This document shows positions 22,205 to 64,000 of a DNA stretch of 64,000 nt, piece by piece. The notes beneath the pieces are model-generated. The model did not search any database. It was given only the letters and a program-made list of their open reading frames with translations, and was not told the DNA's origin. Origin of the DNA: Sipunculus nudus (lineage: Eukaryota > Annelida > Sipuncula > Golfingiida > Sipunculidae); the NCBI GenBank assembly GCA_026874595.1, contig CM049306.1:44890019-44954018 (forward strand). The letters are read 5' to 3'. Position 1 is the first letter of the stretch. Each line of letters begins with the position of its first letter. A program made the translations under genes and the position numbers.

Positions 22205-25200
22205 TTGTTTGGTTTATGGGGGTTGTTTGGTATGTGGGGGTGTTTTGTTTATGGGGATGTTTTGTATCTTGGGTATTGGGGGGGGGGGGGGGGGTGGGGG
22301 TTGGTATATGGGGTTGTTTGGTATATGGGGTTCTTTGGTATATGGGGGTGTTTAGTATATGGAGTTGTTGGTATATGGGGGTGTTTGGTATATGGGGGTG
22401 TTTGGTATATGGGGTTGTGGTATATGGGGGTGTTTGGTATATGCTGGTGTTTGGTATATTGGGGTTTTTGGTATATGGGGGTTTTTGATATATGGGGGTG
22501 TTTGATATATGGAGGTGTTTTTGGTATATGGGGGTGTTTGGTATATGGGGTTTTGGTATATGGGGTTGTTTGGTATATGGGGTTTTAGTATATGGGGTTG
22601 TTTGGTATATGGGGGTGTTTGGTATATGGGGGGTATTTTGTATATGGGGTTGTTTGGTATATGGAGGGTTGTTTAGTATATGGGGTTGTTTGGTATATGG
22701 GAGTGTTTGGTATAAGGGGTTATGGTATATGGGGTGTTTCTGAATATGGAGGCTATTTGTTATATGGGGTGTGTATTGTTTATGGGGATGTTTTGAATAT
22801 TGGGGGGGGGGGGGGGGGCTGTTTGGTATATGGGGGTATTTGGTATATGGGGGTATTTGGTATATGGAGGGTGTTTGGTATATGGGGGTGTTTGGAATAT
22901 GGAGGGTGTTTGGTATACGGTGTTGTTTGTTATATTGGGGTGTTTTAAATATGAGGGTGTATGGTTTATGGGGGTGTTTGGTTTATGGGGATGTTTTGTA
23001 TATAGGAGGGGGGGGGGGATGTTTGGTATATGGGGTGTTTAGAATATGGAGGGTGTTTGGTAGACGGGGTTGTTTGGTATATGGGGTTGTTGGTATATGG
23101 GATGTTTGATATTGGGGTTGTTTGGTAAAGGGGGTTTTGGTATATGGGGTTGTCTGGTATATGGGGTTTTGGTATATGGTGTTGTTTGGTATATGGGGGT
23201 GTTTAGTATATGGGGTGTTTGGTATATGGGGTTGTTTGGTATATGAGGGTGTATGGTTTATTGGGGTATTTGGTATATGGAGGGTGTTTTATATATGGAG
23301 GGTGTTTGGTATATTGGGATGTTTTGAATATGGAGGGTGTTTGGTATACGGTGTTGTTTGGCATATTGGGGTGTTTGGAATATGAGGGTGTATGGTTTAT
23401 GGGGTGTTTAGAATATGGAGTGTGTTTGGTATACGGGGTTGTTTGGTATATGGGATTGTTGGTATACAGGATGTTTGGTATTGGGGGTGTTTGGTATATG
23501 GGGTTTTGGTATATGGGGTTGTCTGTTATATGGGGTTTTGGTATATGGTGTTGGTTGGGATATGGGGTGTTAAGTGTATGGGGGTGTTTGGTATATTGGG
23601 TTGTTTGGTATATTGGGGTGTATGGTTTATGGGGATGTTTTGTATATTGGGGGGGGGGGGGGGGGGTATTTGGTATATGGGGGTGTTTGGTATATCAGGG
23701 TATTTGGTATATCGGGGTGTTTGGTATATGGGGTTGTTTGGTATATGGGGGTGTTTGGTATATTGGGGGCGGGATGGGGGGGTTGGTATATTGGGTTGTT
23801 TGGTATATGGGGTGTTTGGTATATAGGGTGTTTGATATATTGAGGTGTTTGGTATATGGAGGGTGTTTGGAAAATGGAGGGTATTAGGTATATGGAGGTG
23901 TTTGGTATATGGGGGTGTTTGGTATATGGGGTTTTTGGTATAAGGGGTGTTTGGTATATAGGGTGTTTGTTATATGGGGGTGTTTGGTATATGGGGTTGT
24001 TTGGTATATGGGGGGGGGGTGTATTTATATATGGGGGTATTGTGTTTATGGAGTGTGTTTGGTATATGGGGGGGTATTTGGTATATGGGGGTGTTTGGTA
24101 TATGGGGTTGTTTGGTATATGGGGGTGTTTGGTATATTGGGGGCGGGATGGGGGGGGGGGTTGGTATATTGGGTTGTTTGGTATATGGGGTGTTTGGTAT
24201 ATAGGGTGTTTGATATATTGAGGTGTTTGGTATATGGAGGGTGTTTGGAAAATGGAGGGTATTAGGTATATGGAGGTGTTTGGTATATGGGGGTGTTTGG
24301 TATATGGGGTTTTTGGTATAAGGGGTGTTTGGTATATAGGGTGTTTGTTATATGGGGGTGTTTGGTATATGGGGTTGTTTGGTATATGGGGGGGGGTATT
24401 TATATATGGGGGTATTGTGTATATGGAGTGTGTTTGGTATATGGGGGGGTATTTGGTATATGGGGGTGTTTGGTATATGGGGGTGTTTGGTATATGGGAT
24501 TGTTGGTATATGGGGTGTTTGGAATATGGGGGTGTTTGGAATATGGGGGTGTTTGGTATATGGGGGAGAGTATTTGGTATATCGGGGTGTTTGGTATATG
24601 GGGGAGGGTATTTGGTATATGGGTCTGTTGGTATATGGGCTGTTTGGTATATGGGGTTGTTTGGTATAGGGGGGGTATTTAGTATATGGGGGTATTGTGT
24701 ATATGGCGTGTGTTTAGTATATGGGGGGGGGGGGGTATTTGGTATATGGGGGTGTTTGGTATAGGGGGGTGTTTGGTATATGGGGGTGTTTGGTATATGG
24801 GATTGTTGGTATATGGGGTGTTTGGAATATGGGGGTGTTTGGAATATGGGGGTGTTTGGTATATGGGGGTATTTGGTATATGGGGGTATTGGGTATATGG
24901 AGTGTGTTTGGTATATGGGGGTGTTTGGTATATGGGATTGTTGGTATATGGGGTGTTTGGAATATGGGGGTGTTTGGAATATGGGGGTGTTTGGTGTATG
25001 GGGGAGAGTATTTGGTATATCGGGGTGTTTGGTATATGGGAGAGGGTATTTGGTATATGGGTCTGTTGGTATATGGGGTGTTTGGTATATGGGAGTGTTT
25101 GGTATATGGAGGGTGTTTGGAATATGGAGGGAGGGGGTATTTTATATATGGGGTTGTTTGGTATATGGAGGGTGTTTGGTTTATGGGGTTGTATGGTATA

Positions 25201-25288
25201 TTGGGGTGTTTGGTATATTGGGATGTTTGGTATATGTTTTTCTTTTGTATATTGGGGTTTTTTTGTATTTGAGGTTGTTGGTATTTGT
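22205..25288 (+). repeat. G-rich minisatellite, 16-17 bp unit
   Basis: About 180 units of TTTGGTATATGGGGGTG and length variants (TGGGGTTG, TGGGGTG, TTTTGGTATATGGGG) fill 3.1 kb. G-runs of 3-6 recur about every 13 bases on the plus strand, and runs of up to 18 G interrupt it (for example 22,276-22,294 and about 23,650). A segment near 23,751-24,000 recurs about 378 bp downstream, and another near 24,498 recurs at 24,936, showing segmental duplication inside the array. All three plus frames stay open for long stretches and give Trp-Tyr-Met-Gly-Val-Phe-Gly-Ile peptides; these are repeat artefacts. Confidence 0.95.
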
Positions 25289-25855: not shown

Positions 25856-26330
25856 GCTCTTCCCTGGAGACAATCGCGTGACGTGATGCCTGTGGCTCGA
25901 TTTCTATGTTATACCGTCAAGGGTATGTCATAAATTAATATGTCATTAATATCTCGGGTATGGCAGGAATGGCACGGTCCAAGGGGGTGTTACACAACTT
26001 GAAAGGGCTTTTATAGACTATTTCCCCCTAAATTCAAAATGAAAATATGCTCAGCTGGCCTTCTGCAGGGCCACCTTAGAATAATAAGATGACTTATATC
26101 CCGGCTATCCAGGTAACGGAACCTCCTATGTGCTTCGGAGTGTGAAGTATCCTGTTAAGTGTTCTCCGTACGTAATAAAATCGTCGCCTTGGGCACCAGT
26201 TTCACTTTTATTTGTGTCCAGTTGGCTTTGTTTCTTCATGTCTCACCTGTTTTCAGGACTTTGAACTAGAACTGTGGGACGATTGTTTATCAGCCGTTTC
26301 TGACGCATATATTTCTCTCCGGGTTTGCAA
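25856..26330. other. No recognisable feature
   Basis: Unique sequence without supported features. Confidence 0.5.
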
Positions 26331-27490
26331 TAGGACACAGGTTGTGTTTTTCGTTTTTCCTGTCTCTCTGTTTCTGCTTCTGTATAGGAGACAGGTTGTG
26401 TTTTTCGTTTGTCCCGTCTCTCTGTTTCTGCTTCTGTATAGGACACAGGTTGTGTTTTTTTTCGATTTATTGTTTGTCTGTTTCTGCTTCTGTATAGGAG
26501 AAAGGTTGTGTTTTTCGTTTGTCCTGTCTCTCTGTGTCTGCTTCTGTATAGGACAGAGGTTGTGTTTTTTTTATTTCCAGTTTGTCTGTTTCTGCTTTTG
26601 TATAGGACTCAGGTTGCATTTTTCGTTTGTCCTGTTCCTCAGTTTCTGCTTTTGTATAGGACAGAAGTTTTTATGGAATTCTAGTTTGTCTGTTTCTGCC
26701 TCTGTATAGGACACAGTTGTGTTTTTCGTTTTTCCCCGTCTCGCTGTTTCTGCTTCTACATGGGACACAGGTTGTGGTTTTTCGTTTTTCCTGTCTCTCT
26801 GTTTCTGCTTCTGCTTAGGACACAGGTTGTGTTTTTTTTTTTTTTCGTTTGTCCGGTCTCTCTGTTTCTGCTTCTACATGGGACACAGATTGTGTTTTCG
26901 TCTGTCTGCTTGTTTCTGCTTCTGTATAGGACACAAGTTGAATAATTTTTGTTTGACTCGCTCCCTGTTTCTGCTTCTGTATAGGACACAGGTTGTGTAT
27001 ATTTGTTTGTCTCGTCTCTCTGTTTCTGCTTCTGTATAGGACATAGGTTTTTTTTTATTTGTCCTGTCCCTCTGTTTCTGCTTCTGTTAAGGACACAGGT
27101 TGTGTTTTTGTTTTGTTTGTCCGGTCTTCCTGTTTCTGCTTCTGTATAGGGCACAAGTTGTGTATTTTTTTTACCTGTCTCCCAGTTTCTGCTTTAATAT
27201 AGGACACAGGTTGTGTTTTTCGTTTGTCCCGTCTCTCTGTTTGTCCTGCCTCTCTGTTTCTGCTTCTGTTAAGGACACAGGTTGTTTTTTTTTGTTTGTC
27301 CGGTCTTCCTGTTTCTGCTTCTGCATAGGACACGGGTTGTGTTTTTCGTTTGTCCTGTCTCTCTGTTTCTGCTTCTGTATAGGACAGAGGTTGTGTTTAT
27401 TTTCGATTTCCTGTTTTTCAGTTTTGACTTCTGTATAGGACTCAGGTTGTGTTTTTCGTTTTTCCTGTCTTTCTGTTTCTGCTTCTGTAT
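26331..27490. repeat. 54-bp pyrimidine-rich minisatellite, about 21 units
   Basis: Each unit runs TAGGACACAGGTTGTGTTTT, then a T/C-rich stretch with TCGTTTGTCC, then TCTCTCTGTTTCTGCTTCTG. The first two units start at 26,331 and 26,385. Units vary by T-run length, substitutions and short deletions. Because 54 is a multiple of three, the minus strand shows repeated peptides such as SYTEAETERRDKRKTQPV, but indels shift the frame between units, so I do not treat it as coding. Confidence 0.95.
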
Positions 27491-28439
27491 ATCTACATAT
27501 AAACGATACATAAAATGAGTGTGGACGGATTTGAATTCGATTTTTCCTTATAAACTCTAGAATACTAGTTAGTCGACAACACCGCGATAAGCATGGGAAG
27601 GTTATCAAAGTTTGTGCAATATAGACATAATAAAAAATAAGGCAAATGCTGATTTTAAACCATTTTAGATATAAATTTTACAGATAAAACTCATTTATGG
27701 AACCAAGGTCTTTCAGTATTATTCTAATTATTAATATATTTCATTTTCATTATATGGTACTTATTCTCACTAAATGAGGGGTTATTATAACGTTGACCAC
27801 CCCACCCCCATCTTGCTTAAATGTTAGAGATAGATACCCCAATCCCCTGTATTGACGCCCCTGCATGCAGAAGTTGCGATCGATTACTGTGCTGGTGAAA
27901 TTTTAATAAATTATGAAACAATGAGTCCATTGACCTCATCGAAAAGCACTCCTCTATTCCATGTGAAGCCGTATTTTCCAATCACTCATGCTGTAAAGGA
28001 CGGTTTGTCACTGCGAGCCTTGTCTATGGCAGACATTCTCGCGGTTTAACCCCCTGGATTCCAGGGCCGCGGCCCCGTCCAGGAACCAGGTGGATGATCC
28101 CGTCACTGTTTTTGTGATACCCCTACTTTTGGCCAGCGGTCCTTCGCCTGCTTCCAGTAATTGTTTTTTTTTTCAGACAGAAAGGATAACTGGCTGAGTT
28201 TCTTGAATGAAATATTTTTGAATTTCTATTTACTCAATGTCTAAATTCGAAGATTTTTACGATGTATAATTGGGTATTCGCAAATGCATTTAATCATTTC
28301 GACCATATCTTTCCATTTAGTGCGGCGGCTAATGGAAAAATTGTTCAAATTGTGATAAAAGTACCAAATTTGGTACAGTTGTAGTATTGTACACTGGCTT
28401 TCACTGAAGAAATAGTTCCACGAAATATTCATGGTATTT
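27491..28439. other. No recognisable feature
   Basis: AT-rich sequence. No gene supported. Confidence 0.5.
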
Positions 28440-45617: not shown

Positions 45618-47992
45618 AAATGGTCAAAATACTAAGGCCCAAAAAAAGATTTGGTTCTTAGGCACCGCACGCATCAATTAAACCAACCCCCCAACCCCCA
45701 ATAAAAATTTTTATTTTGATTTATATCTTTCGAGAAGATAAAATGATATAATTTAATTAAAATTTCCTTTGTTATGTAGTGCGTTTACCTGTTCTTATCG
45801 AAACATGCAAAAAAAAAGGAAATAAAAAAAAACGCCCGCCCGCACTGATTTTTAAAAAAAAAAATGCCTGAGACCCCTACCTTTTTTTGGCCTTAGCTTT
45901 ATGTAATATACGTGGAGCTTTAAATTTGAACAAAAATGAAGAGTCCGGGACGCTCAGGCCAAGGTTTCAGAGGTCACATAGGATATTGGAGATTCTTAAA
46001 ATTAAGGTGAAGGGAACTATGTCAAATGGTTAGATGGTTATGTAAAATTTAATAAATTTTTGTCAAAATATTACGTCAGTATCGTACCTTTATATGGTTA
46101 TGTATCGTCTCATCTATATGGTTATTGGATAACATAGTTTTTGTACATTGGAGATAGTCGGTTACGGAAACCGATTGATGCATGAGCCTAGTTTGATCAG
46201 TTTATCCTACGGACACTCGGACATCTAAAAGCGAGCGTCCAAAAATATATCGATCTTTACAGATGCTTATTCCCACGTTATTGAAAGCCTCATCATACAC
46301 TTCTTTGTACACTACCTGTCATGAATTAATTTTACCATTTTCCTTTCGGGTGCCCATGTATTTAGGTGCCCGTTATATCAAAGACGCGGCATACCTGTTA
46401 TGGAGAACACAGTACTTGGTGTCAGTTTCTTCTACGTTGTCCGTGGTAGCATTCTAGTCAGGTTTTGTGGGACAATTTCATAATGTGACGCACTTTAAGG
46501 CAAATTTCATGATGACAGCCTTAGCCCACTTGGACCGTGTATGCAATGCTTTGAATCTGTCAAACGTTTACAGAGGAAATGTCATTTTCCCACCAATAGA
46601 GAGCTAGGTGTGATTATTATGCGTTCCTGCGAAATGAAAGTCTTTCGGGAACAAATATAAAATACATCTTCTGTCTGGAAAATAGGTCAGTTTACTAATA
46701 GTTGACTTAAAATGAGGCTAAATAGAATAATGCATATTTTCTACACGTCTAAACCAGCAAAGTAGGCAGACTCAACAATTTAGCTGCGGACGATAGTTGA
46801 CTCCCTATTAATTGGACTAATAAATCATTTTTCTAATAACCCGAAGCCAATCCGTTTATTAAGGCACGGCACAGGACGGAATTATATGTTGATAACACGC
46901 CTAAGAACTTGAACAATCACTTGAACAATCATTTATCTGTTACAGATGTGACACATCTGTGTTTAAGCTTACACCTGTAAACACGTTTTGTATTCGGTAT
47001 CACTGCATTCCATGTTCAATCTATATATGTGCTAGCTGTACTGGTAAAACATGTTTAATAAAAATATTAAAAATCATAGAATATATCTTCTTTGCATGTA
47101 AAAATGATATCATTGGGTAAGACACGTGAGGCTCGAATGTGTTAATGCTCAAGTTGGCCGTAGACGAAAAATGCACGAAAAGCACGACAGTCAGTGGATG
47201 TGCCAAGGTTTTCATTTCAACAAACAACTTAATTTAGCATTGATGTATGAGCAGCCTGCCCCAGGCGCACGAGATATGAACATATCTGTCTTGTAAATAC
47301 CAGTGTATCAACTGGAAATTGATTGGAAATGTCTGTTGTCATGGTATTCAATCTGGAAGCCACAGAAACGCTATTGTTGGCATATCCTGATCAGACATGC
47401 AGCTATGCGGTATCAGTTATAATGAATGCTGTCACGTCTAGGACATGCCATTGTTGTCACCTAATTTATCATTGGAGTTATACATTGAAGTTGACAAGAT
47501 GTTTTCCTGTTTCTATAAACCGGCAGCTCTTTAATTGTGTATTTAAGAAGGGTTTTCAATGGCCTATTTTACAACATTTAACGCAAATTTTAAACAAAAG
47601 TAATATCCTGTAATATACAAGAGCGGTATACTTAAAAAAAAAGGTTTATATAATGAAAGGTGGAGTTGTTTGAGAGTAATTGTTTCTTCTAAATCAAATT
47701 GATCGTCTCGACCTTTGATCCTCTGTCATAACGTTATGCATGATGTTGATGTATAGTACAAGCTATATATTTGAGAATATTTGGTCATTACATTTCAAAT
47801 GTATGGTTACCAATCTCTATTAGCCTTAATCTTATAAAATTATAAACTTATCCTAATTATATAATGCGTGAAAATAGTAAATTAAGCCTTAAAATCCTCT
47901 AATCTGCACATTACCAAACAACAGGAATAGATATCATCAAATACATTAAATCTTCATACACAAATAATTCAGACTTTTATTTTAAACATTTT
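45618..47992. other. No recognisable feature
   Basis: AT-rich sequence. A 96-codon plus-strand frame at 47,323-47,613 has no recognised motif. No repeat supported. Confidence 0.5.
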
Positions 47993-48160
47993 ATGGTGAG
48001 ATACCCACCTCCATTTTTAATCTTACTTAACTACGTATATGTACATCTGCAGTATTCCATTCCAGTTTCGGACTGCGTATCACACGCTTCCTCTCACTTC
48101 ATATCTTACTGTCAACCAGGCCCGACGACTACTGCACCTGCGGGCCCTAGGTGCATTGAA
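47993..48160 (-). mobile_element. SINE copy C, 3' half
   Basis: On the minus strand it matches the 3' half of the SINE at 816: AGGGCCCGCAGGTGCAGTAG, GGGCCTGGTT, GAGAGGAAGCGTGTGATAC, TCCGAAACTGGAATGGAAT, CTGCAGATGTACATATACGT, and AGTTAAGTAAGATTAAAAAT. The tRNA-like head is missing. That is consistent with 5' truncation during reverse transcription. Confidence 0.8.
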
Positions 48161-48759: not shown

Positions 48760-49105
48760 TTTTTTGGTGGAGGTCACCGCCTCGATTTTTTATGCTTGCT
48801 TAACTATATGAAATCATTACATCTGCAGAGTGTCATCCCGGTTTCGAACTACTCGATGGAGACTTATACGCGATTATCTTGCAGTCAATCAGGCCCCTTT
48901 GTAGCACTCAGGCGGGTCCTGGGTGTATGTCATCCCTATTGCTAGGTCATAACACCGAGAAAGGCGCACTGGTTTTGAGTGAAACACGACTATTAGGCCC
49001 AGTCTCCCCCTTATGCCTGCAGAGCCCTCACCTGGTTAGCAGACGATGGCGAATACTCTCACCCTCCTTGAGTCCTGTGCTGTACCCCTGAGCCCTGTGC
49101 TCTAC
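48760..49105 (-). mobile_element. SINE copy B, head fused to the satellite
   Basis: Read on the minus strand from its 3' end: CCTCCACCAAAAAATC (48,760), GTTAAGCAAGCATAAAAAAT, CTGCAGATGTAATG, GTTCGAAACCGGGATG, GTGCGCCTTTCTCGGTG, GTGTTTCACTCAAAACCAG and GGGCTCTGCAGGCATAAGG, all in the order of SINE copy A. The head region (49,020-49,105) reads GGCTCAGGGGTA, then CACAGGACTCAAGGAGGGTG and AGTATTCGCC. Copy A has GGCTCAGGGGTAAATTGCAG and GACTCAAAG in the corresponding place. The head is at the same time the first unit of the satellite that continues to the right. Confidence 0.8.
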
Positions 49106-52100
49106 TTTGAGTCCTGAGTCGTCCTGTGCTCTATCTTAAATCCTGAGTCCTGTGCTCTACCTTGAATACTGAGCCCTGTGCTGTACCCCTGAGCCCTGTG
49201 CTCTACCTTGAGTCCTGAGCCCTGTGCTGTACCCCTGAGCCCTGTGCTCTACCTTGAGTCCTGAGTCCTGTGCTCTACCTTGAGTCCTGAGTCCTGAGCT
49301 CTACCTAATGTCCTGAGCCCTGTGCTCTACCTTGAATACTGAGCCCTGTGCTGTACCCCTGAGCCCTGTGCTGTACCCCTGAGTCCTGTGCTCTACCTTG
49401 AGTCCTGAGTCGTCCTGTGCTCTATCTTAAATCCTGAGTCCTGTGCTCTACCTTGAATACTGAGCCCTGTGCTGTACCCCTGAGCCCTGTGCTCTACCTT
49501 GAGTCCTGAGCCCTGTGCTGTACCCCTGAGCCCTGTGCTCTACCTTGAGTCCTGAGTCCTGTGCTCTACCTTGAGTCCTGAGTCCTGAGCTCTACCTAAT
49601 GTCCTGAGCCCTGTGCTCTACCTTGAATACTGAGCCCTGTGCTGTACCCCTGAGCCCTGTGCTGTACCCCTGAGTCCTGTGCTCTACCTTGAGTCCTGAG
49701 CCCTGTGCTGTACCCCTGAGCCCTGTGCTCTACCTTGAGTCCTGAGTCCTGTGCTCTACCTTGAGTCCTGAGTCCTGAGCTCTACCTAATCTCCTTAGCC
49801 CTGTGCTCTACCTTGAATACTGAGCCCTGTGCTGTACCCCTGAGCCCTGTGCTGTACCCCTGAGCCCTGTGCTCTACCTTGAGTCCTGAGCCCTGTGCTG
49901 TACCCCTGAGCCCTGTGCTCTACCTTGAGTCCTGAGCCCTGTGCTCTACCTTGAGTCCTGAGTCCTGTGCTGTACCCCTGAGCCCTGTGCTCTACCTTGA
50001 GTCCTGAGCCCTGTGCTCTACCTTGAGTCCTGAGCCCTGTGCTGTACCCCTGAGCCCTGTGCTCTACCTTAAATACTGAGCCCTGTGCTGTACCCCTGAG
50101 CCCTGTGCTCTACCTTGAATACTGAGCCCTGTGCTGTACCCCTGAGCCCTGTGCTCTACCTTGAATCCTGAGCCCTGTGCTCTACCTTGAGTCCTGAGTC
50201 CTGTGCTCTACCTTGAGTCCTGAGTCCTGAGCTCTACCTAATGTCCTGAGCCCTGTGCTCTACCTTAATACTGAGCCCTGTGCTGTACCCCTGAGCCCTG
50301 TGCTGTACCCCTGAGCCCTGTGCTCTACCTTGAGTCCTGAGCCCTGTGCTGTACCCCTGAGCCCTGTGCTCTACCTTGAGTCCTGAGTCCTGTGCTCTAC
50401 CTTGAGTCCTGAGTCCTGAGCTCTACCTAATGTCCTGAGCCCTGTGCTCTACCTTGAATACTGAGCCCTGTGCTGTACCCCTGAGCCCTGTGCTGTACCC
50501 CTGAGCCCTGTGCTCTACCTTGAGTCCTGAGTCCTGTGCTCTACCTTGAGTCCTGAGTCCTTTGCTGTACCCCTGAGTCCTGTGCTCCACCTTGAGTCCT
50601 GAGTCCTGTGCTGTACCCCTGAGCCCTGTGCTGTACCCCTGAGCCCTGTGCTCTACCTTGAATACTGAGCCCTGTGCTGTGCCCCTGAGCCCTGTGCTCT
50701 ACCTTGAATCCTGAGCCCTGTGCTCTACCTTGAGTCCTGAGTCCTGTGCTCTATCTTGAGTCCTGAGTCCTGAGCTCTACCTAATATCCTGAGCCCTGTG
50801 CTCTACCTTGAGTCCTGAGTCCTGTGCTCTACCTTGAGTCCTGAGTCCTGTGCTGTACCCCTGAGCCCTGTGCTGTACCCCTGAGTCCTGTGCTCTATCT
50901 TGAGTCCTAGGTCCTGTGCTCTACCTAATGTCCTGAGCCCTGTGCTCTACCTTGAGTCCTGAGTCCTGTGCTCTACCTTGAGTCCTGAGTTCCGTGCTCT
51001 ACCTTGAGTCCTGAGTCCTGTGCTCTACCTTGAGTCCTGAGTCCTGTGCTGTACCCCTGAGCCCTGTGCTGTAACCCTGAGTCCTGTGCTCTACCTTGAG
51101 TCCTGAGTCCTGAGCTCTACCTAATGTCCTGAGCCCTGTGCTCTACCTTGAGTGCTGAGTCCTGTGCTCTACCTTGAGTCCTGAGTCCTGTGCTGTACCC
51201 CTGAGCCCTGTGCTGTACCCCTGAGTCCTGTGCTCTACCTTGAGTCCTGAGTCCTGAGCTCTACCTAATGTCCTGAGCCCTGTGCTCTACCTTGAGTCCT
51301 GAGTCCTGTGCTCTAACTTGAGTCCTGAGTCCTGAGCTCTACCTAATGTCCTGAGTCCTGTGCTCTACCTTGAGTCCTGAGTCCTGTGCTCTACCTTGAG
51401 TCCTGAGTCCTGTGCTGTACCCCTGAGCCCTGTGCTGTACCCCTGAGTCCTGTGCTCTACCTTGAGTCCTGAGCTCTACCTAATGTCCTGAGCCCTGTGC
51501 TCTACCTTGAGTCCTGAGTCCTGTGCTCTACCTTGAGTCCTGAGTCCTGTGCTGTACCCCTGAGCCCTGTGCTGTACCCCTGAGTCCTGTGCTCTACCTA
51601 GAGTCCTGAGTCATGTGCTCTACCTTGAGTCCTGAGTCCTGTGCTGTACCCCTGAGTCCTGTGCTCTACCTTGAGTCCTGAGTCCTGTGCTGTACCCCTG
51701 CGCCCTGTGCTGTACCCCTGAGCCCTGTGCTCTGCCTTGAGACCTGAGTCCTGTGCTGTACCCCTGAGCCCTGTGCTGTACCCCTGAGCCCTGTGCTCTA
51801 CCTTGAATACTGAGCCCTGTGCTCTGCCTTGAGTCCTGAGTCCTGTGCTGTACCCCTGAGCCCTGTGCTGTACCCCTGAGCCCTGTGCTCTACCTTGAAT
51901 CCTGAGCCCTGTGCTCTACCTAATGTCCTGAGCCCTTTGCTCTACCTTGAGTCCTGAGTCCTGTGCTCTACCTTGAGTCCTGAGTCCTGAGCTCTACCTA
52001 ATGTCCTGAGCCCTGTGCTCTACCTTGAGTCCAGAGTCCTGTGCTCTACCTTGAGTCCTGAGTCCTGTGCTGTACCCCTGAGCCCTGTGCTGTACCCCTG

Positions 52101-55100
52101 AGCCCTGTGCTCTACCTTGAATACTGAGCCCTGTGCTGTACCCCTGAGCCCTGTGCTGTACCCCTGAGCCCTGTGCTCTACCTTGAATACGGAGCCCTGT
52201 GCTGTCCCCCTGAGCCCTGTGCTCTACCTTGAATCCTGAGCCCTGTGCTCTACCTTTAGTCCTGAGTCCTGTGCTCTACCTTGAGTCCTGAGTCCTGAGC
52301 TCTACCTAATGTCCTGAGCCCTGTGCTCTACCTTGAATACTGAGCCCTGTGCTGTACCCCTGAGCCCTGTGTTGTACCCCTGAGCCCTGTGCTCTACCTT
52401 GAGTCCAGAGTCCTGTGCTCTATCTTGAGTCCTGAGTCCTGTGCTCTACCTTGAGTCCTGAGTCCTGTGCTCTACCTTTTGTCCTGAGCCCTGTGCTCTA
52501 CCTTGAATACTGAGCCCTGTGCTCTACCTTGAGTCCTGAGCCCTGTGCTCTACCTTGAGTCCTGAGTCCTGTGCTCTACCTAATGTCCTGAGCCCTGTGC
52601 TCTACCTTGAATACTGAGCCCTGTGCTGTACCCCTGAGCCCTGTGCTCTACCTTGAATACTGAGCCCTGTGCTCTACCTTAAGTCCTGAGCCCTGTGCTC
52701 TACCTTGAGTCCTGAGCCCTGTGCTGTACCCCTGAGCCCTGTGCTGTACCCCTGAGCCCTGTGCTCTACCTTGAGTCCTGAGTCCTGTGCTCTACCTTGA
52801 GTCCTGAGTCCTGAGCTCTACCTAATGTCCTGAGCCCTGTGCTCTACCTTGAATACTGAGCCCTGTGCTGTACCCCTGAGCCCTGTGCTCTACCTTGAAT
52901 ACTGAGCCCTGTGCTCTACCTTAAGTCCTGAGCCCTGTGCTCTACCTTGAGTCCTGAGCCCTGTGCTGTACCCCTGGGCCCTGTGCTGTACCCCTGAGCC
53001 CTGTGCTCTGCCTTGAGTCCTGAGTCCTGTGCTCTACCTTGAGCCCTGTGCTCTACCTTGAGTCCTGAGTCCTGTGCTCTACCTTGAGTCCTGAGTCCTG
53101 AGTCCTGTGTTCTACCTTGAGTCCTGAGTCCTGTGCTCTACCTTGAGTCCTGAGTCCTGTGTTCTACTTTGAGTCCTGAGTCCTGTGTTCTACCTTGAGT
53201 CCTGAGTCCTGTGCTCTACCTTGAGTCCTGAGTCCTGTGCTGTACCCCTGAGCCCTGTGCTCTACCTTGAGTCCTGAGCCCTGTGCTCTACCTTGAGTCC
53301 TGAGCCCTGTGCTGTACCCCTGAGCCCTGTGCTCTACCTTAAATACTGAGCCCTGTGCTGTACCCCTGAGCCCTGTGCTCTACCTTGAATACGGAGCCCT
53401 GTGCTGTACCCCTGAGCCCTGTGCTCTACCTTGAATCCTGAGCCCTGTGCTCTACCTTGAGTCCTGAGTCCTGTGCTCTACCTTGAGTCCTGAGTCCTGA
53501 GCTCTACCTAATGTCCTGAGCCCTGTGCTCTACCTTAATACTGAGTCCTGTGCTGTACCCCTGAGCCCTGTGCTGTACCCCTGAGCCCTGTGCTCTACCT
53601 TGAGTCCTGAGCCCTGTGCTGTACCCCTGAGCCCTGTGCTCTACCTTGAGGCCTGAGTCCTGTGCTCTACCTTGAGTCCTGAGTCCTGAGCTCTACCTAA
53701 TGTCCTGGGCCCTGTGCTCTACCTTGAATACTGAGCCCTGTGCTGTACCCTGAGCCCTGTGCTGTACCCCTGAGCCCTGTGCTCTACATTGAGTCCTGAG
53801 TCCTGTGCTGTACCTTGAGTCCTGAGTCCTGTGCTGTACCCCTGAGTCCTGTGCTCTACCTTGAGTCCTGAGTCCTGTGCTGTACCCCTGAGCCCTGTGC
53901 TGTACCCCTGAGCCCTGTGCTCTGCCTTGAGTCCTGAGTCCTGTGCTGTACCCCTGAGCCCTGTGCTGTACCCCATAGCCCTGTGCTCTACCTTGAATAC
54001 TGAGCCCTGTGCTGTACCCCTGAGCCCTGTGCTCTACCTTGAATCCTGAGCCCTGTGCTCTACCTTGAGTCCTGAGTCCTGTGCTCTACCTTGAGTCCTG
54101 AGTCCTGAGCTCTACCTAATGTCCTGAGCCCTGTGCTCTACCTTGAGTCCTGAGTCCTGTGCTCTACCTTGAGTCCTGAGTCCTGTGCTGTACCCCTGAG
54201 CCCTGTGCTGTACCCCTGAGTCCTGTGCTCTATCTTGAGTCTTGAGTCCTGTGCTCTACCTAATGTCCTGAGCCCTGTGCTCTACCTTGAGTCCTGAGTC
54301 CTGTGCTGTACCTTGAGTCCTGAGTCCTGTGCTGTACCTTGAGTCCTGAGTCCTGTGCTGTACCTTGAGTCCTGAGTCCTGTGCTCTACCTTTAGTCCTG
54401 AGTCCTGTGCTGTACCCCTGAGCCCTGTGCTGTACCCCTGAGTCCTGTGCTCTACCTTGAGTCCTGAGTCCTGAGCTCTACCTAATGTCCTGAGCCCTGT
54501 GCTCTACCTTGAGTGCTGAGTCCTGTGCTCTACCTTGAGTCCTGAGTCCTGTGCTGTACCCCTGAGCCCTGTGCTGTACCCCTGAGTCCTGTGCTCCACC
54601 TTGAGTCCTGAGTCCTGAGCTCTACCTAATGTCCTGAGCCCTGTGCTCTACCTTGAGTCCTGAGTCCTGTGCTCTAACTTGAGTCCTGAGTCCTGAGCTC
54701 TACCTAATGTCCTGAGTCCTCTGCTCTACCTTGAGTCCTGAGTCCTGTGCTCTACCTTGAGTCCTGAGTCCTGTGCTGTACCCCTGAGCCCTGTGCTGTA
54801 CCCCTGAGTCCTGTGCTCTACCTTGAGTCCTGAGTCCTGAGCTCTACTTAATGTCCTGAGCCCTGTGCTCTACCTTGAGTCCTGAGTCCTGTGCTCTACC
54901 TTGAGTCCTGAGTCCTGTGCTGTACCCCTGAGCCCTGTGCTGTACCCCTGAGTCCTGTGCTCTACCTTGAGTCCAGAGTCCTGTGCTCTACCTTGAGTCC
55001 TGAGTCCTGTGCTGTACCCCTGAGTCCTGTGCTCTACCTTGAGTCCTGAGTCCTGTGCTGTACCCCTGAGCCCTGTGCTGTACCCCACTGAGCCCTGTGC

Positions 55101-58100
55101 TCTGCCTTGAGTCCTGAGTCCTGTGCTGTACCCCTGAGCCCTGTGCTCTACCTTGAATACTGAGCCCTGTGCTCTACCTTAAGTCCTGAGCCCTGTGCTC
55201 TACCTTGAGTCCTGAGCCCTGTGCTGTACCCCTGGGCCCTGTGCTGTACCCCTGAGCCCTGTGCTCTGCCTTGAGTCCTGAGTCCTGTGCTCTACCTTGA
55301 GCCCTGTGCTCTACCTTGAGTCCTGAGTCCTGTGCTCTACCTTGAGTCCTGAGTCCTGAGTCCTGTGTTCTACCTTGAGTCCTGAGTCCTGTGCTCTACC
55401 TTGAGTCCTGAGTCCTGTGTTCTACTTTGAGTCCTGAGTCCTGTGTTCTACCTTGAGTCCTGAGTCCTGTGCTCTACCTTGAGTCCTGAGTCCTGTGCTG
55501 TACCCCTGAGCCCTGTGCTCTACCTTGAGTCCTGAGCCCTGTGCTCTACCTTGAGTCCTGAGCCCTGTGCTGTACCCCTGAGCCCTGTGCTCTACCTTAA
55601 ATACTGAGCCCTGTGCTGTACCCCTGAGCCCTGTGCTCTACCTTGAATACGGAGCCCTGTGCTGTACCCCTGAGCCCTGTGCTCTACCTTGAATCCTGAG
55701 CCCTGTGCTCTACCTTGAGTCCTGAGTCCTGTGCTCTACCTTGAGTCCTGAGTCCTGAGCTCTACCTAATGTCCTGAGCCCTGTGCTCTACCTTAATACT
55801 GAGTCCTGTGCTGTACCCCTGAGCCCTGTGCTGTACCCCTGAGCCCTGTGCTCTACCTTGAGTCCTGAGCCCTGTGCTGTACCCCTGAGCCCTGTGCTCT
55901 ACCTTGAGGCCTGAGTCCTGTGCTCTACCTTGAGTCCTGAGTCCTGAGCTCTACCTAATGTCCTGGGCCCTGTGCTCTACCTTGAATACTGAGCCCTGTG
56001 CTGTACCCTGAGCCCTGTGCTGTACCCCTGAGCCCTGTGCTCTACATTGAGTCCTGAGTCCTGTGCTGTACCTTGAGTCCTGAGTCCTGTGCTGTACCCC
56101 TGAGTCCTGTGCTCTACCTTGAGTCCTGAGTCCTGTGCTGTACCCCTGAGCCCTGTGCTGTACCCCTGAGCCCTGTGCTCTGCCTTGAGTCCTGAGTCCT
56201 GTGCTGTACCCCTGAGCCCTGTGCTGTACCCCATAGCCCTGTGCTCTACCTTGAATACTGAGCCCTGTGCTGTACCCCTGAGCCCTGTGCTCTACCTTGA
56301 ATCCTGAGCCCTGTGCTCTACCTTGAGTCCTGAGTCCTGTGCTCTACCTTGAGTCCTGAGTCCTGAGCTCTACCTAATGTCCTGAGCCCTGTGCTCTACC
56401 TTGAGTCCTGAGTCCTGTGCTCTACCTTGAGTCCTGAGTCCTGTGCTGTACCCCTGAGCCCTGTGCTGTACCCCTGAGTCCTGTGCTCTATCTTGAGTCT
56501 TGAGTCCTGTGCTCTACCTAATGTCCTGAGCCCTGTGCTCTACCTTGAGTCCTGAGTCCTGTGCTGTACCTTGAGTCCTGAGTCCTGTGCTGTACCTTGA
56601 GTCCTGAGTCCTGTGCTGTACCTTGAGTCCTGAGTCCTGTGCTCTACCTTTAGTCCTGAGTCCTGTGCTGTACCCCTGAGCCCTGTGCTGTACCCCTGAG
56701 TCCTGTGCTCTACCTTGAGTCCTGAGTCCTGAGCTCTACCTAATGTCCTGAGCCCTGTGCTCTACCTTGAGTGCTGAGTCCTGTGCTCTACCTTGAGTCC
56801 TGAGTCCTGTGCTGTACCCCTGAGCTCTGTGCTGTACCCCTGAGTCCTGTGCTCCACCTTGAGTCCTGAGTCCTGAGCTCTACCTAATGTCCTGAGCCCT
56901 GTGCTCTACCTTGAGTCCTGAGTCCTGTGCTCTAACTTGAGTCCTGAGTCCTGAGCTCTACCTTGAGTCCTGAGTCCTGTGCTGTACCCCTGAGCCCTGT
57001 GCTGTACCCCTGAGCCCTGTGCTCTACCTTGAATACTGAGCCCTGTGCTCTGCCATGAGTCCTGAGTCCTGTGCTGTACCCCTGAGCCCTGTGCTGTACC
57101 CCTGAGCCCTGTGCTCTACCTTGAATCCTGAGCACTGTGCTCTACCTTGAGTCCTGAGTCCTGTGCTCTACCTTGAGTCCTGAGTCCTGAGCTCTACCTA
57201 ATGTCCTGAGCCCTGTGCTCTACCTTGAGTCCTGAGTCCTGTGCTCTACCTTGAGTCCTGAGTCCTGAGCTCTACCTAATGTCCTGAGCCCTGTGCTCTA
57301 CCTTGAGTCCAGAGTCCTGTGCTCTACCTTGAGTCCTGAGTCCTGTGCTGTACCTCTGAGCCCTGTGCTGAACCCCTGAGCCCTGTGCTCTACCTTGAAT
57401 ACTGAGCCCTGTGCTGTACCCCTGAGCCCTGTGCTGTACCCCTGAGCCCTGTGCTCTACCTTGAATACTGAGCCCTGTGCTGTACCCCTGAGCCCTGTGC
57501 TCTACCTTGAGTCCTGAGTCTTGTGGTCTACCTTGAGTCCTGAGTCGTGAGCTCTACCTAATGTCCTGAGCCCTGTGCTCTACCTTGAATACTGAGCCCT
57601 GTGCTGTACCCCTGAGCCCTGTGCTCTACCTTGAGTCCTGAGTCCTGTCCTCTACCTTGAGTCCTGAGTCCTGTGCTCTACCTTGAGTCCTGAGTCCTGT
57701 GCTCTACCTAATGTCCTGAGCCCTGTGCTCTACCTTGAATACTGAGCCCTGTGCTCTACCTTGAGTCCTGAGCCCTGTGCTCTACCTTGAGTCCTGAGTC
57801 CTGTGCTCTACCTAATGTCCTGAGCCCTGTGCTCTACCTTGAATACTGAGCCCTGTGCTGTACCCCTGAGCCCTGTGCTCTACCTTGAATACTGAGCCCT
57901 GTGCTCTACCTTAAGTCCTGAGCCCTGTGCTCTACCTTGAGTCCTGAGCCCTGTGCTGTACCCCTGAGCCCTGTGCTGTACCCCTGAGCCCTGTGCTCTG
58001 CCTTGAGTCCTGAGTCCTGTGCTCTACCTTGAGTCCTGAGTCCTGAGCTCTACCTAATGTCCTGAGCCCTGTGCTCTACCTTGAATACTGAGCCCTGTGC

Positions 58101-61100
58101 TGTACCCCTGAGCCCTGTGCTCTACCTTGAATACTGAGCCCTGTGCTGTACCCCTGAGCCCTGTGCTCTACCTTGAATACTGAGCCCTGTGCTCTACCTT
58201 AAGTCCTGAGCCCTGTGCTCTACCTTGAGTCCTGAGCCCTGTGCTGTACCCCTGAGCCCTGTGCTGTATCCCTGAGCCCTGTGCTCTGCCTTGATTCCTG
58301 AGTCCTGTGCTGTACCCTGAGCCCTGTGCTCTACCTTGAGTCCTGAGTCCTGTGTTCTACCTTGAATCCTGAGTCCTGTGCTCTACCTTGAGTCCTGAGT
58401 CCTGTGTTCTACCTTGAGTCCTGAGTCCTGTGCTGTACCCCTGAGCCCTGCGCTCTACCCCTGAGCCCTGTGCTCTACCTTGAGTCCTGAGTCCTGTGTT
58501 CTACCTTGAGTCCTGAGTCCTGTGCCCTACCTTGAGTCCTGAGTCCTGTGTTGTACCCTTGAGCCCTGTGCTGTACCCCTGAGCCCTGTGCTCTACCTTG
58601 AGTCCTGAGTCCTGTGCTCTACCTTGAGTCCTGAGCTCTACCTAATGTCCTGAGCCCTGTGCTCTACCTTGAATACTGAGCCCTGTGCTGTACCCCTGAG
58701 CCCTGTGCTCTACCTTGAATACTGAGCCCTGTGCTCTACCTTAAGTCCTGAGCCCTGTGCTCTACCTTGAGTCCTGAGCCCTGTGCTGTACCCCTGAGCC
58801 CTGTGCTGTACCCCTGAGCTCTGTGCTCTACCTTGAGTCCTGAGCCCTGTGCTGTACCCCTGAGCCCTGTGCTCTACCTTGAGTCCTGAGTCCTGTGCTC
58901 TACCTTGAGTCCTGAGTCCTGAGCTCTACCTAATGTCCTGGGCCCTGTGCTCTACCTTGAATACTGAGCCCTGTGCTGTACCCCTGAGCCCTGTGCTCTA
59001 CCTTGAGTCCTGAGTCGTGTGCTCTACCTTGAGTCCTGAGTCCTGTGTTCTACCTTGAGTCCTGAGTCCTGTGCTCTACCTTGAGTCCTGAGTCCTGAGC
59101 TCTACCTAATGTCCTGAGCCCTGTGCTCTACCTTGAGTCCTGAGTCCTGTGTTCTACCTTGAGTCCTGAGTCCTGTGTTCTACCTTGAGTCCTGAGTCCT
59201 GTGCTCTACCTTGAGTCCTGAGTCCTGAGCTCTACCTAATGTCCTGAGCCCTGTGCTCTACCTTGAGTCCTGAGCCCTCTGCTCCACTTTGAGTCCTGAG
59301 TCCTGTGCTCTACTTTGAGTCCTGAGTCCTGTGCTCTACCTTGAGTCCTGAGTCCAATGCTCTACCTTGAATACTGAGCCCTGTGCTGTACCCCTGAGCC
59401 CTGTGCTGTTACCCTGAGCCCTGTGCTCTACCTTGAGTCCTAACCCCTGTGCTGTACCCCTGAGCCCTGTGGTCTACTTTGAGTCCTGAGTCCTGTGCTC
59501 TACCTTGAGTCCAGAGTCCTGTGCTTTACCTTGAATACTGAGCCCTGTGCTGTACCCCTGACCCCTGTGCTGTACCCCTGAGCCCTGTGCTGTACCCCTG
59601 AGTCCTGTGCTCTATCTTGAGTCCTGAGTCCTGTGATCTACCTTGAGTCCTGAGTCCTGTGCTCTATCCTGAGTCCTGAGTCCTGTTCTCTGCCTTGAGT
59701 CCTGAGTCCTGTGCTCTACCTTGAGTCCCGAGTCCTGTGCTCTACCTTGAGTCCAGAGTCCTGTGCTCTACCTAATGTCTTGAGTCCTGTGCTCAACCTT
59801 GAGTCCAGAGTCCTGTGCTCTACCTAATGTCCTGAGCCCTGTGCTCTACCTTGAACCCTGAGCCCTGTGCTCTACCTTGAATCCTGAGCCCTGTGCTCTA
59901 CCTTGAGTCCAGAGTCCTGTGCTCTACCTAATGTCCTGAGCCCTGTGCTCTACCTTGAACCCTGAGCCCTGTGCTCTACCTTGAGTCCTGAGCCCTGTGG
60001 TCTACTATCAGTCCTGAGTCCTGTGCTCTACCTTGAGTCAAGTGTCCTGTGCTTTACCTTGAATACTGAGCCCTGTGCTGTACCCCTGAGCCCTGTGCTC
60101 TACCTTGAATACTGAGCCCTGTGCTCTACCTTAAGTCCTGACCCCTGTGCTCTACCTTGAGTCCTGAGCCCTGTGCTGTACCCCTGAGCCCTGTGCTGTA
60201 CCCCTCAGCCCTGTGCTCTACCTTGAGTCCTGAGCCCTGTGCTGTACCCCTGAGCCCTGTGCTCTACCTTGAGTCCTGAGTCGTGTGCTCTACCTTGAGT
60301 CCTGAGTCGTGTGCTCTACCTTGAGTCCTGAGTCCTGTGTTCTACCTTGAGTCCTGAGTCCTGTGCTCTACCTTGAGTCCTGAGTCCTGAGCTCTACCTA
60401 ATGTCCTGAGCCCTGTGCTCTACCTTGAGTCCTGAGTCCTGTGCTGTACCCCTGAGCCCTGTGCTGTACCCCTGAGCCCTGTGCTGTACCCCTGAGTCCT
60501 GTGGTCTACCTTGAGTCCTGAGTCCTGTGCTCTACCTTGAGTCCTGAGTCCTGAGCTCTACCTAATGTCCTGAGCCCTGTGCTCTACCTTGAATCCTGAG
60601 CCCTCTGCTCCACTTTGAGTCCTGAGTCCTGTGCTCTACTTTGAGTCCTGAGTCCTGTGCTCTACCTTGAGTCCTGAGTCCAATGCTCTACCTTGAATAC
60701 TGAGCCCTGTGCTGTACCCCTGAGCCCTGTGCTGTACCCCTGAGCCCTGTGCTCTACCTTGAGTCCTAACCCCTGTGCTGTACCCCTGAGCCCTGTGGTC
60801 TACTTTGAGTCCTGAGTCCTGTGCTCTACCTTGAGTCCAGAGTCCTGTGCTTTACCTTGAATACTGAGCCCTGTGCTGTACCCCTGAGCCCTGTGCTGTA
60901 CCCCTGAGCCCTGTGCTGTACCCCTGAGTCCTGTGCTCTATCTTGAGTCCTGAGTCCTGTGATCTACCTTGAGTCCTGAGTCCTGTGCTCTACCCTGAGT
61001 CCTGAGTCCTGTTCTCTGCCTTGAGTCCTGAGTCCTGTGCTCTACCTTGAGTCCCGAGTCCTGTGCTCTACCTTGAGTCCAGAGTCCTGTGCTCTACCTA

Positions 61101-64000
61101 ATGTCTTGAGTCCTGTGCTCAACCTTGAGTCCAGAGTCCTGTGCTCTACCTAATGTCCTGAGCCCTGTGCTCTACCTTGAACCCTGAGCCCAGTGCTCTA
61201 CCTTGAGTCCAGAGCCCTGTGCTCTACCTTGAGTCCAGAGTCCTGTGCTCTACCTAATGTCCTGAGCCCTGTGCTCTACCTTGAACCCTGAGCCCTGTGC
61301 TCTACCTTGAGTCCTGAGCCCTGTGGTCTACTATGAGTCCTGAGTCCTGTGCTCTACCTTGAGTCAAGTGTCCTGTGCTTTACCTTGAATACTGAGCCCT
61401 GTGCTGTACCCCTGAGCCCTGTGCTGTACCCCTGAGCCCTGTGCTGTACCCCTGAGTCCTGTGCTCTGCCTTGAGTCCTGAGTCCTGTGCTCTACCTTGA
61501 GTCCCGAGTCCTGTGCTCTACCTTGAGTCCAGAGTCCTGTGCTCTACCTAATGTCTTGAGTCCTGTGCTCTACCTTGAGTCCAGAGTCCTGTGCTCTACC
61601 TAATATCCTGAGCCCTGTGCTCTACCTTGAACCCTGAGCCCTGTGCTCTACCTTGAATCCTGAGCCCTGTGCTCTACCTTGAGTCCAGAGTCATGTGCTC
61701 TACCTTGAGTCCTGAGCCCTGTGCTCTACCTTGAGTCCTGAGTCCTGTGTTCTACCTTGAGTCCTGAGTCCTGTGCTCTACCTTGAGTCCTGAGTCCTGT
61801 GTTCTACCTTGAGTCCTGAGTCCTGTGCTCTACCTTGAGTCCCGAGTCCTGTGCTCTACCTTGAGTCCAGAGTCCTGTGCTCTACCTAATGTCTTGAGTC
61901 CTGTGCTCTACCTTGAGTCCAGAGTCCTGTGCTCTACCTAATGTCCTGAGCCCTGTGCTCTACCTTGAACCCTGAGCCCTGTGCTCTACCTTGAATCCTG
62001 AGCCCTGTGCTCTACCTTGAGTCCAGAGTCCTGTGCTCTACCTTGAGTCCTGAGCCCTGTGCTCTACCTTGAGTCCTGAGTCCTGTGTTCTACCTTGAGT
62101 CCTGAGTCCTGTGCTCTGCCTTGAGTCCTGAGTCCTGTGCTCTACCTTGAGTCCTGAGTCCTGAGCTCTACCTAATGTCCTGAGCCCTGTGCTCTACCTT
62201 GAATACTGAGCCCTGTGCTGTACCCCTGAGCCCTGTGCTCTACCTTGAATACTGAGCCCTGTGCTCTACCTTAAGTCCTGAGCCCTGTGCTCTACCTTGA
62301 GTCCTGAGCCCTGTGCTGTACCCCTGAGCCCTGTGCTGTATCCCTGAGCCCTGTGCTCTGCCTTGATTCCTGAGTCCTGTGCTGTACCCCTGAGCCCTGT
62401 GCTCTACCTTGAGTCCTGAGTCCTGTGTTCTACCTTGAATCCTGAGTCCTGTGCTCTACCTTGAGTCCTGAGTCCTGTGTTCTACCTTGAGTCCTGAGTC
62501 CTGTGCTGTACCCCTGAGCCCTGCGCTCTACCCCTGAGCCCTGTGCTCTACCTTGAGTCCTGAGTCCTGTGTTCTACCTTGAGTCCTGAGTCCTGTGCCC
62601 TACCTTGAGTCCTGAGTCCTGTGTTGTACCCTTGAGCCCTGTGCTGTACCCCTGAGCCCTGTGCTCTACCTTGAGTCCTGAGTCCTGTGCTCTACCTTGA
62701 GTCCTGAGCTCTACCTTATGTCCTGAGCCCTGTGCTCTACCTTGAATACTGAGCCCTGTGCTGTACCCCTGAGCCCTGTGCTCTACCTTGAATACTGAGC
62801 CCTGTGCTCTACCTTAAGTCCTGAGCCCTGTGCTCTACCTTGAGTCCTGAGCCCTGTGCTGTACCCCTGAGCCCTGTGCTGTACCCCTGAGCTCTGTGCT
62901 CTACCTTGAGTCCTGAACCCTGTGCTGTACCCCTGAGCCCTGTGCTCTACCTTGAGTCCTGAGTCCTGTGCTCTACCTTGAGTCCTGAGTCCTGAGCTCT
63001 ACCTAATGTCCTGGGCCCTGTGCTCTACCTTGAATACTGAGCCCTGTGCTGTACCCCTGAGCCCTGTGCTCTACCTTGAATACTGAGCCCTGTGCTCTAC
63101 CTTAAGTCCTGAGCCCTGTGCTCTACCTTGAGTCCTGAGCCCTGTGCTGTAACCCTGAGCCCTGTGCTGTACCCCTGAGCCCTGTGCTCTACCTTGAGTC
63201 CTGAGCCCTGTGCTGTACCCCTGAGCCCTGTGCTCTACCTTGAGTCCTGAGTCGTGTGCTCTACCTTGAGTCCTGAGTCCTGTGTTCTACCTTGAGTCCT
63301 GAGTCCTGTGCTCTACCTTGAGTCCTGAGTCCTGAGCTCTACCTAATGTCCTGAGCCCTGTGCTCTACCTTGAGTCCTGAGTCCTGTGTTCTACCTTGAG
63401 TCCTGAGTCCTGTGTTCTACCTTGAGTCCTGAGTCCTGTGCTCTACCTTGAGTCCTGAGTCCTGTGCTCTAACTTGAGTCCTGAGTCCTGAGCTCTACCT
63501 AATGTCCTGAGTCCTCTGCTCTACCTTGAGTCCTGAGTCCTGTGCTCTACCTTGAGTCCTGAGTCCTGTGCTGTACCCCTGAGCCCTGTGCTGTACCCCT
63601 GAGTCCTGTGCTCTACCTTGAGTCCTGAGTCCTGAGCTCTACCTAATGTCCTGAGCCCTGTGCTCTACCTTGAGTCCTGAGTCCTGTGCTCTACCTTGAG
63701 TCCTGAGTCCTGTGCTGTACCCCTGAGCCCTGTGCTGTACCCCTGAGTCCTGTGCTCTACCTTGAGTCCAGAGTCCTGTGCTCTACCTTGAGTCCTGAGT
63801 CCTGTGCTGTACCCCTGAGTCCTGTGCTCTACCTTGAGTCCTGAGTCCTGTGCTGTACCCCTGAGCCCTGTGCTGTACCCCTGAGCCCTGTGCTCTGCCT
63901 TGAGTCCTGAGTCCTGTGCTGTACCCCTGAGCCCTGTGCTGTACCCCTGAGCCCTGTGCTCTACCTTGAATACTGAGCCCTGTGCTCTGCCATGAGTCCT
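49066..64000 (-). repeat. SINE-head-derived satellite, at least 14.9 kb
   Basis: Roughly 650 units, mainly of two lengths on the plus strand: 20 bp (GAGCCCTGTGCTGTACCCCT) and 26 bp (GAGTCCTGTGCTCTACCTTG plus AGTCCT). Variants include TTGAATACT, CTAATGTCC and GTGTTCTACC forms. On the minus strand the units read GGCTCAGGGGTACAGCACAG or ...GACTCAAGGTAGAGCACAG, the D-arm/A-box segment of a tRNA. The A-box consensus T-R-G-C-N-N-A-R-Y-N-G-G fits GGGCTCAGGGG with its first base changed. Segmental repeats occur: 52,863-54,704 recurs at 55,121-56,962 (offset 2,258), about 58,150-59,000 at about 62,220-63,070 (offset about 4,072), and 59,270-59,870 at 60,596-61,196 (offset 1,326). The array continues past the window. 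The minus-strand GYSTGLRGTAQDSGLK open frames are artefacts. Confidence 0.9.

Follow-up and report, generated by a model that had tools for sequence, protein, structure and literature searches.

A short-unit satellite array within the tRNA-related head of a SINE in Sipunculus nudus

A 17.2-kb satellite array in the genome of Sipunculus nudus appears to be a new example of a known route of satellite birth, in which about 20 letters of one SINE head were copied hundreds of times. Its units resemble the D-arm part of this head, and the array lies between the two ends of a SINE. With a probability of roughly 0.7, a single old insertion (SINE B) was the founder, a piece of whose head was duplicated and then grew to the array inside the head.

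The array and its SINE family

The window, i.e., the whole 64,000-nucleotide stretch of DNA that was analyzed, comprises bases 44,890,019-44,954,018 of contig C1 (110.9 Mb) in a genome of 1.43 Gb. Tandem Repeats Finder placed a period-26 array at window positions 49087-63859. Read by eye, the satellite starts at 49068, where it adjoins SINE B (48760-49067, minus strand). The array (array 1, minus strand) fills the window from there to position 64000 and, as seen in the following 40 kb that was inspected, continues outside it to coordinate 66242, which gives the total of 17.2 kb. It contains 21 CpG, with CA in the unit where the SINE consensus has CG, and TTTT is absent from its minus strand, which has no bearing on transcription either way; the slices used for unit, block and base counts include 14 bp of flank. 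Two other arrays were reported by Tandem Repeats Finder in the window: a 3-kb array of a 17-bp unit, TGTTTGGTATATGGGGG, at 22206-25236, and a 1.2-kb array of a 54-bp unit at 26330-27491, the latter with additional rows at 110 and 164 bp.

The consensus of the SINE family was built from 30 genomic copies and starts ACCGGCTTCTGTGGCTCAGGGGTAGAGCGCAGGACTCAAAGCCGGGAGATCGTGAGTTCGAATCTCAGCC. SINE A, on the plus strand at about 815-1206, is one of these 30 copies and matches the consensus at 376 of 385 positions. Used as a query against the genome, it gave 6,470 first-look candidates, and the best 40, which were scored, were 89-100% identical over nearly the whole query. SINE B, whose body and 3' end are single copy, agrees with the consensus at 234 of 299 aligned bases (78% identity, i.e., approximately 22% divergence) and with SINE A at 73% over 287 columns; the next best genome match to its body was 78% identical (best 40 of 1,884 candidates scored). 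A further, truncated copy (47982-48153, minus strand) is 77% identical to SINE A. Target-site duplications scoring above the 95th percentile of mismatched flank pairs were found for 21 of the 30 family copies, and the remaining 9, SINE A included (score 3), were not above it.

The link between this family and tRNA is based on Rfam matches in SINE copies outside the window. In three of the four loci tried, the Rfam tRNA model matched 72 bases from GCTTCTG on, with scores of 29.5-30.5 bits, just over the gathering score of 29; the fourth locus gave no match at E 0.1. In the window itself, nothing was reported by ARAGORN or by Rfam at the gathering score.

Relationship between the satellite unit and the SINE head

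A form consisting of one unit and the next bases, GGCTCAGGGGTACAGCACAGGACTCA, is present in 39 exact copies in the array and matches the 30-copy SINE consensus at 24 of 26 bases, and a form ending GGGCTCA is present in 74 copies and matches at 23 of 26 (both counts are non-overlapping). At the SINE edge of the array, GGCTCAGGGGTACAGCACAGGACTCAA agrees with the family consensus at 25 of 27 bases and with SINE A, in which the corresponding head piece is GGCTCAGGGGTAAATTGCAGGACTCAA, at 23 of 27; SINE A is thus a poorer match to the unit than the consensus is. This 27-mer occurs once in the array, at the body edge, and it is without its last base that it reaches the 39 copies.

A 28-base query scored 44 against the consensus, whereas the best of 5,000 dinucleotide shuffles scored 32 and the top score in approximately 47 kb of remaining window sequence was 21. 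The margin was far thinner for the 26-bp form alone, which aligned with the head at 17 of 18 bases (score 31, shuffle maximum 29). For each of four queries, none of 5,000 shuffles was as good. Judging from its sequence, the satellite is derived from the D-arm part of the SINE tRNA head, as proposed in a preliminary description of this DNA; the chance tRNA-like match that would have spoken against this origin is not what we see, as the likeness stands far above both shuffles and other window sequence. The same description correctly had the SINE at 816 as full-length with a single head unit, and the D-arm pieces that it quoted are present in the minus strand of the array. Its statement that they occur in every unit did not hold, however, since GGCTCAGGGGTA is missing from some.

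The amplified piece had also been called an A-box fragment, which is right by position only. With general consensus patterns for the A and B boxes, the SINE consensus showed 2 mismatches to each box, whereas the 20-bp unit had 3 mismatches to the A box and the 26-bp unit had 4. In the 17.2 kb of minus strand the A box was found at no place exactly, at one place with one mismatch and at nine with up to two, and the B box at no place with up to 2 mismatches. The units, which fit these patterns worse than the SINE consensus does, lack the pair of A and B boxes expected in the unit of a Pol III-transcribed satellite, and at the body edge the B-box region has been lost. The sequence suggests no function for the array, which we infer to be neutral.

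Edges of the array

At the near edge, the satellite sequence CACAGGACTCAA is followed by the SINE body sequence GGAGGGTGAGA (49057-49079, minus strand), in agreement with the preliminary description, according to which the array meets SINE B at its head and the body is single copy beyond. The far edge (66209-66242, minus strand) reads GGCCTTGTGGCCCAGGGGTAGAGCACAGGACTCA and corresponds to the 5' start of this SINE; it matches the consensus at 31 of 34 bases with gaps and at 27 of 29 in local alignment. Both SINE termini are therefore retained, the 5' start at one array edge and the body to the 3' end at the other, and from these two edges it follows that the array lies inside the SINE head. It had been described as one short head piece amplified to at least 14.9 kb on the 5' side of the insertion; the short piece stands and the length is now 17.2 kb, but the array is within the head rather than 5' of the insertion.

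Exact matches to GGCCTTGTGGCCCAGGGGTAGAGCACAGGACTCA are confined to C1, where there are three: one at this edge, one 7,166 bp beyond it and one at 65,223,423. Another 9 places match at 2-3 mismatches, and in all 9 a head with a single unit leads into further SINE sequence. The satellite/body junction has no second exact match in the genome; 3 further places come within 2-3 mismatches. At the body edge, the head lacks approximately 32-36 bp after GGACTCAA, comprising the remainder of the anticodon arm together with the B-box region, and because the exact junction is unique, this loss is probably private to the SINE B copy. A target-site duplication joining the far array edge and the end of SINE B was not found with five start points tried, and 53-89% of mismatched pairs did as well as this pair. 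Order and strand thus carry the case for one founding insertion.

Unit types and blocks

The anchors enclose 704 units, of which 492 are 26 bp long, 184 are 20 bp long and 28 have other lengths. The commonest 26-bp unit is GGACTCAGGACTCAAGGTAGAGCACA (131 copies) and the commonest 20-bp unit is GGGCTCAGGGGTACAGCACA (134 copies). The 20-bp form consists of the D-arm and the opening bases of the anticodon arm, rejoined at CTCA, whereas the 26-bp form has GGACTCA twice, with GGACTCAA joined to GGTAGAGC. Exchange at CTCA should leave a joint of GGACTCA followed by GGGGTA, and this joint is present in the unit GGACTCAGGGGTACAGCACA, which accounts for 26 of the 704. The two forms are distributed along the array such that 26-bp units make up 62 of 66 in the first 1.7 kb past the SINE 5' start and 20-bp units make up 25 of 73 in the last bin near the SINE body. 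Much longer repetition was also evident: 87% of the array is in blocks of at least 400 bp that have an ungapped copy at 96% identity or more, and at the strongest block shift, 2,258 bp, a 1.9-kb stretch recurs with 100% identity in its best window.

Occurrence of the satellite in the genome

A 39-base satellite pattern was found exactly at 38 places in the genome, all 38 in two arrays on C1: 20 on the reverse strand at 44.94-44.96 Mb, which equals the local count of 20, and 18 on the forward strand at 65.22-65.24 Mb. Two more patterns, with up to 3 mismatches, gave reverse-strand totals of 156 and 445, again equal to the local counts (156 and 445). Within the patterns and mismatches used, there is no other copy of these satellite forms on the reverse strand of the assembly, and the agreement of totals with local counts argues against a second birth on that strand. 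The forward totals were 152 and 381, and as array 2 was read at its two ends, the exclusion applies to the reverse strand; every one of the matches listed, 100 out of 308 for the first pattern and 100 out of 826 for the second, was in the two arrays. For the first pattern, the matches listed with up to 2 mismatches included at least 35 places in array 1, where the local count was 61. With a looser pattern, the forward strand had 520 matches and the reverse strand 539, of which only 201 were in array 1 and its tandem copy. This total was not taken as a satellite count, because SINE heads of the GAGCACAGG variant fit the pattern at 2 mismatches (hand count). The satellite might have been expected at many loci lacking the SINE had it been older than the element, a prospect raised in advance of this search; the exact pattern was instead confined, in 1.43 Gb, to array 1 and an inverted array 2, two related loci both edged by the SINE 5' start.

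Satellite matches in array 2 extend from 65,223,423 to a stretch of 500 N at 65,240,772 (two ends read). This array is inverted relative to array 1, 20.3 Mb away, and has the 5' flank of array 1, pieces of which are 94-98% identical over approximately 10 kb; the next 5 kb of flank (L011:1-5245) had no match near array 2 among the best candidates. The 2.5 kb read at the far end of array 2 gave no match to a SINE body, the edge itself being N. A tandem duplication was also found at the home locus, where a 7.2-kb piece made up of the array end and 4.6 kb of flank is repeated (97.5% identity over 7,206 bp), such that part of array 1 recurs up to 73408.

Several features of these regions may be recorded separately. 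The 500 N right at the end of array 2 (L085:1773-2272) are an assembly gap or a withheld stretch. The common 5' flank contains an interspersed repeat (L009:2355-2826) that is approximately 90% identical at many places and has four copies 3,160 bp apart at C9:77.74 Mb. The inverted arrays (C1:44939086-44963426 and C1:65223423-65240771) have their common 5' flanks inward and are a possible substrate for inversion. It is conceivable, if rather improbable, that the satellite was born once from one D-arm among thousands of SINE copies and then copied inverted, to leave two arrays of more than 17 kb facing each other across 20.3 Mb; in that event, exchange between them could invert the 20.3-Mb segment.

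Origin of the array

The observations are best accommodated by the following course of events. An old SINE copy, B, now approximately 22% from the consensus, would have inserted on the minus strand. In its tRNA-derived head, the D-arm would have begun with TGGCTCA and the anticodon arm, 20 bases away, with GGACTCA, the two having CTCA in common, and slippage or unequal exchange at CTCA may have duplicated the intervening 20 bases. The 26-base form could have come from a further out-of-register exchange, and exchange of larger blocks (e.g., 2,258 bp) would then have raised the number to approximately 700 units, all within the head. The acceptor strand would have been kept at one edge and the body at the other, with part of the head lost at the body edge. 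The array with approximately 10 kb of 5' flank is also present in inverted orientation 20 Mb away, and the 7.2-kb piece is duplicated in tandem. The likeness of unit and head, the place of the array between two SINE ends, the unit types, the blocks and both duplications are observed directly; one founding insertion, CTCA as the seed and the order of these events are what we infer from the arrangement. A seed of only 4 bases points against a slippage origin, as the model of Haber and Louis, as told in PMC6947457, starts from short direct repeats of 5-10 bp. In addition, when the consensus was scanned for internal repeats of 10 bases (at least 8 matches), four others were found but not the CTCA pair, and the first arm of the preserved founding head reads GGCCCA, not GGCTCA as in the consensus.

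The lack of a target-site duplication across the array makes it possible that two SINEs were involved, i.e., that the array grew in another SINE, perhaps at C1:65.22 Mb, and that recombination in common head sequence linked it to the SINE B body. The junction loss that looks private to this place and the existence of array 2 with its closely similar 5' flank would fit such a chimera. However, the parts have the order and strand of a single SINE, array 2 gave no SINE body at its far end (though that edge is N), and one more event would be needed; we consider this origin unlikely, though deserving of attention. The assembly itself might also be at fault, or array 2 might be a misplaced second haplotype, given that long arrays are difficult to assemble, that array 2 ends at the 500-N stretch and that, in a highly variable species, flank differences of 2-6% might be allelic. 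Array 1, however, has distinct edges on both sides as well as many unit variants and nested blocks, and the failure of L011:1-5245 to match near array 2 (best candidates only) weakens the haplotig reading, so that an artefact of either kind appears highly improbable.

Growth within the head of a single SINE B insertion, which we prefer, could also have begun differently, with the first repeats arising during retrotransposition when reverse transcriptase jumped back in the D-arm and growth at the DNA level following later. The duplication would then sit within an insertion that is normal in other respects, as observed, and the data do not tell this beginning from DNA slippage. Yet the reverse strand has no other 20-bp head dimer within 3 mismatches, which indicates that such jumps are at least rare, and we regard this beginning as very unlikely.

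Comparison with known systems

Xenopus satellite 1 has a unit of 741 bp, longer than that described here. Like the present array, Xenopus satellite 1 / OAX and salamander Hy/Pol III are tandem repeats with a tRNA-related part, according to a table in PMC9659126. The Hy/Pol III unit, at approximately 200 nt, is also longer, and the SINE link of both systems is doubted in PMC10702118.

In that paper (Vassetzky et al. 2023), squamate SINE-derived satellites (sSats) have units that are portions of SINEs, some with head sequence. As in our array, units come from part of a SINE with a tRNA head, an end unit runs to the SINE terminus, minor variants have both SINE termini and there are up to hundreds of units per locus. 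The array has 704 tandem units, compared with the sSat minimum of four; its unit is homologous to a SINE portion (24 of 26 and 23 of 26 bases to the 30-copy consensus), and the edge unit runs into a SINE terminus at both edges. sSats differ in having units of approximately 67-290 nt at thousands of loci in many snakes, whereas here the unit is a 20/26-bp D-arm piece at two related loci. The four-unit minimum and the subtelomeric tendency of sSats are both taken from PMC10702118; the present arrays, at 44.9 and 65.2 Mb of the 110.9-Mb contig C1, are not subtelomeric.

Minisatellites derived from Alu and B1 (Jurka and Gentles 2006; Bois et al. 1998, as cited in PMC6947457, PMC9659126 and PMC3389668) likewise have a short unit within a SINE and are seeded by short direct repeats (PMC6947457). 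They involve other SINEs, with the named part near the 3' end or, in B1, a GAGGCA dimer (PMC9659126, which also says that repeats can come from any SINE region), and Alu arrays have 2.3-2.4 units on average (PMC3389668). In view of these minisatellites from Alu/B1 pieces, as reviewed, and of satellites from SINE portions (PMC10702118), the earlier opinion that known conversions involve whole elements or tails was too narrow. The available parts of PMC12692304 and PMC5874043 contained no closer case. A satellite with a D-arm unit was not found in the literature at the level of titles and abstract openings, a search that left subscription journals mostly outside.

Satellites usually lose the traces of their origin. 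In this array the two ends of the parent element, likely recombinant joints and later block amplification are all still legible, and therefore the standard model of a short repeat, slippage and unequal exchange becomes testable step by step. SINE-derived satellites and minisatellites are already known, and the array, distinguished by its very short unit from the D-arm and by the retention of both SINE ends, is a variant of them, by which the range of SINE-derived satellites would extend to a 20-bp unit.
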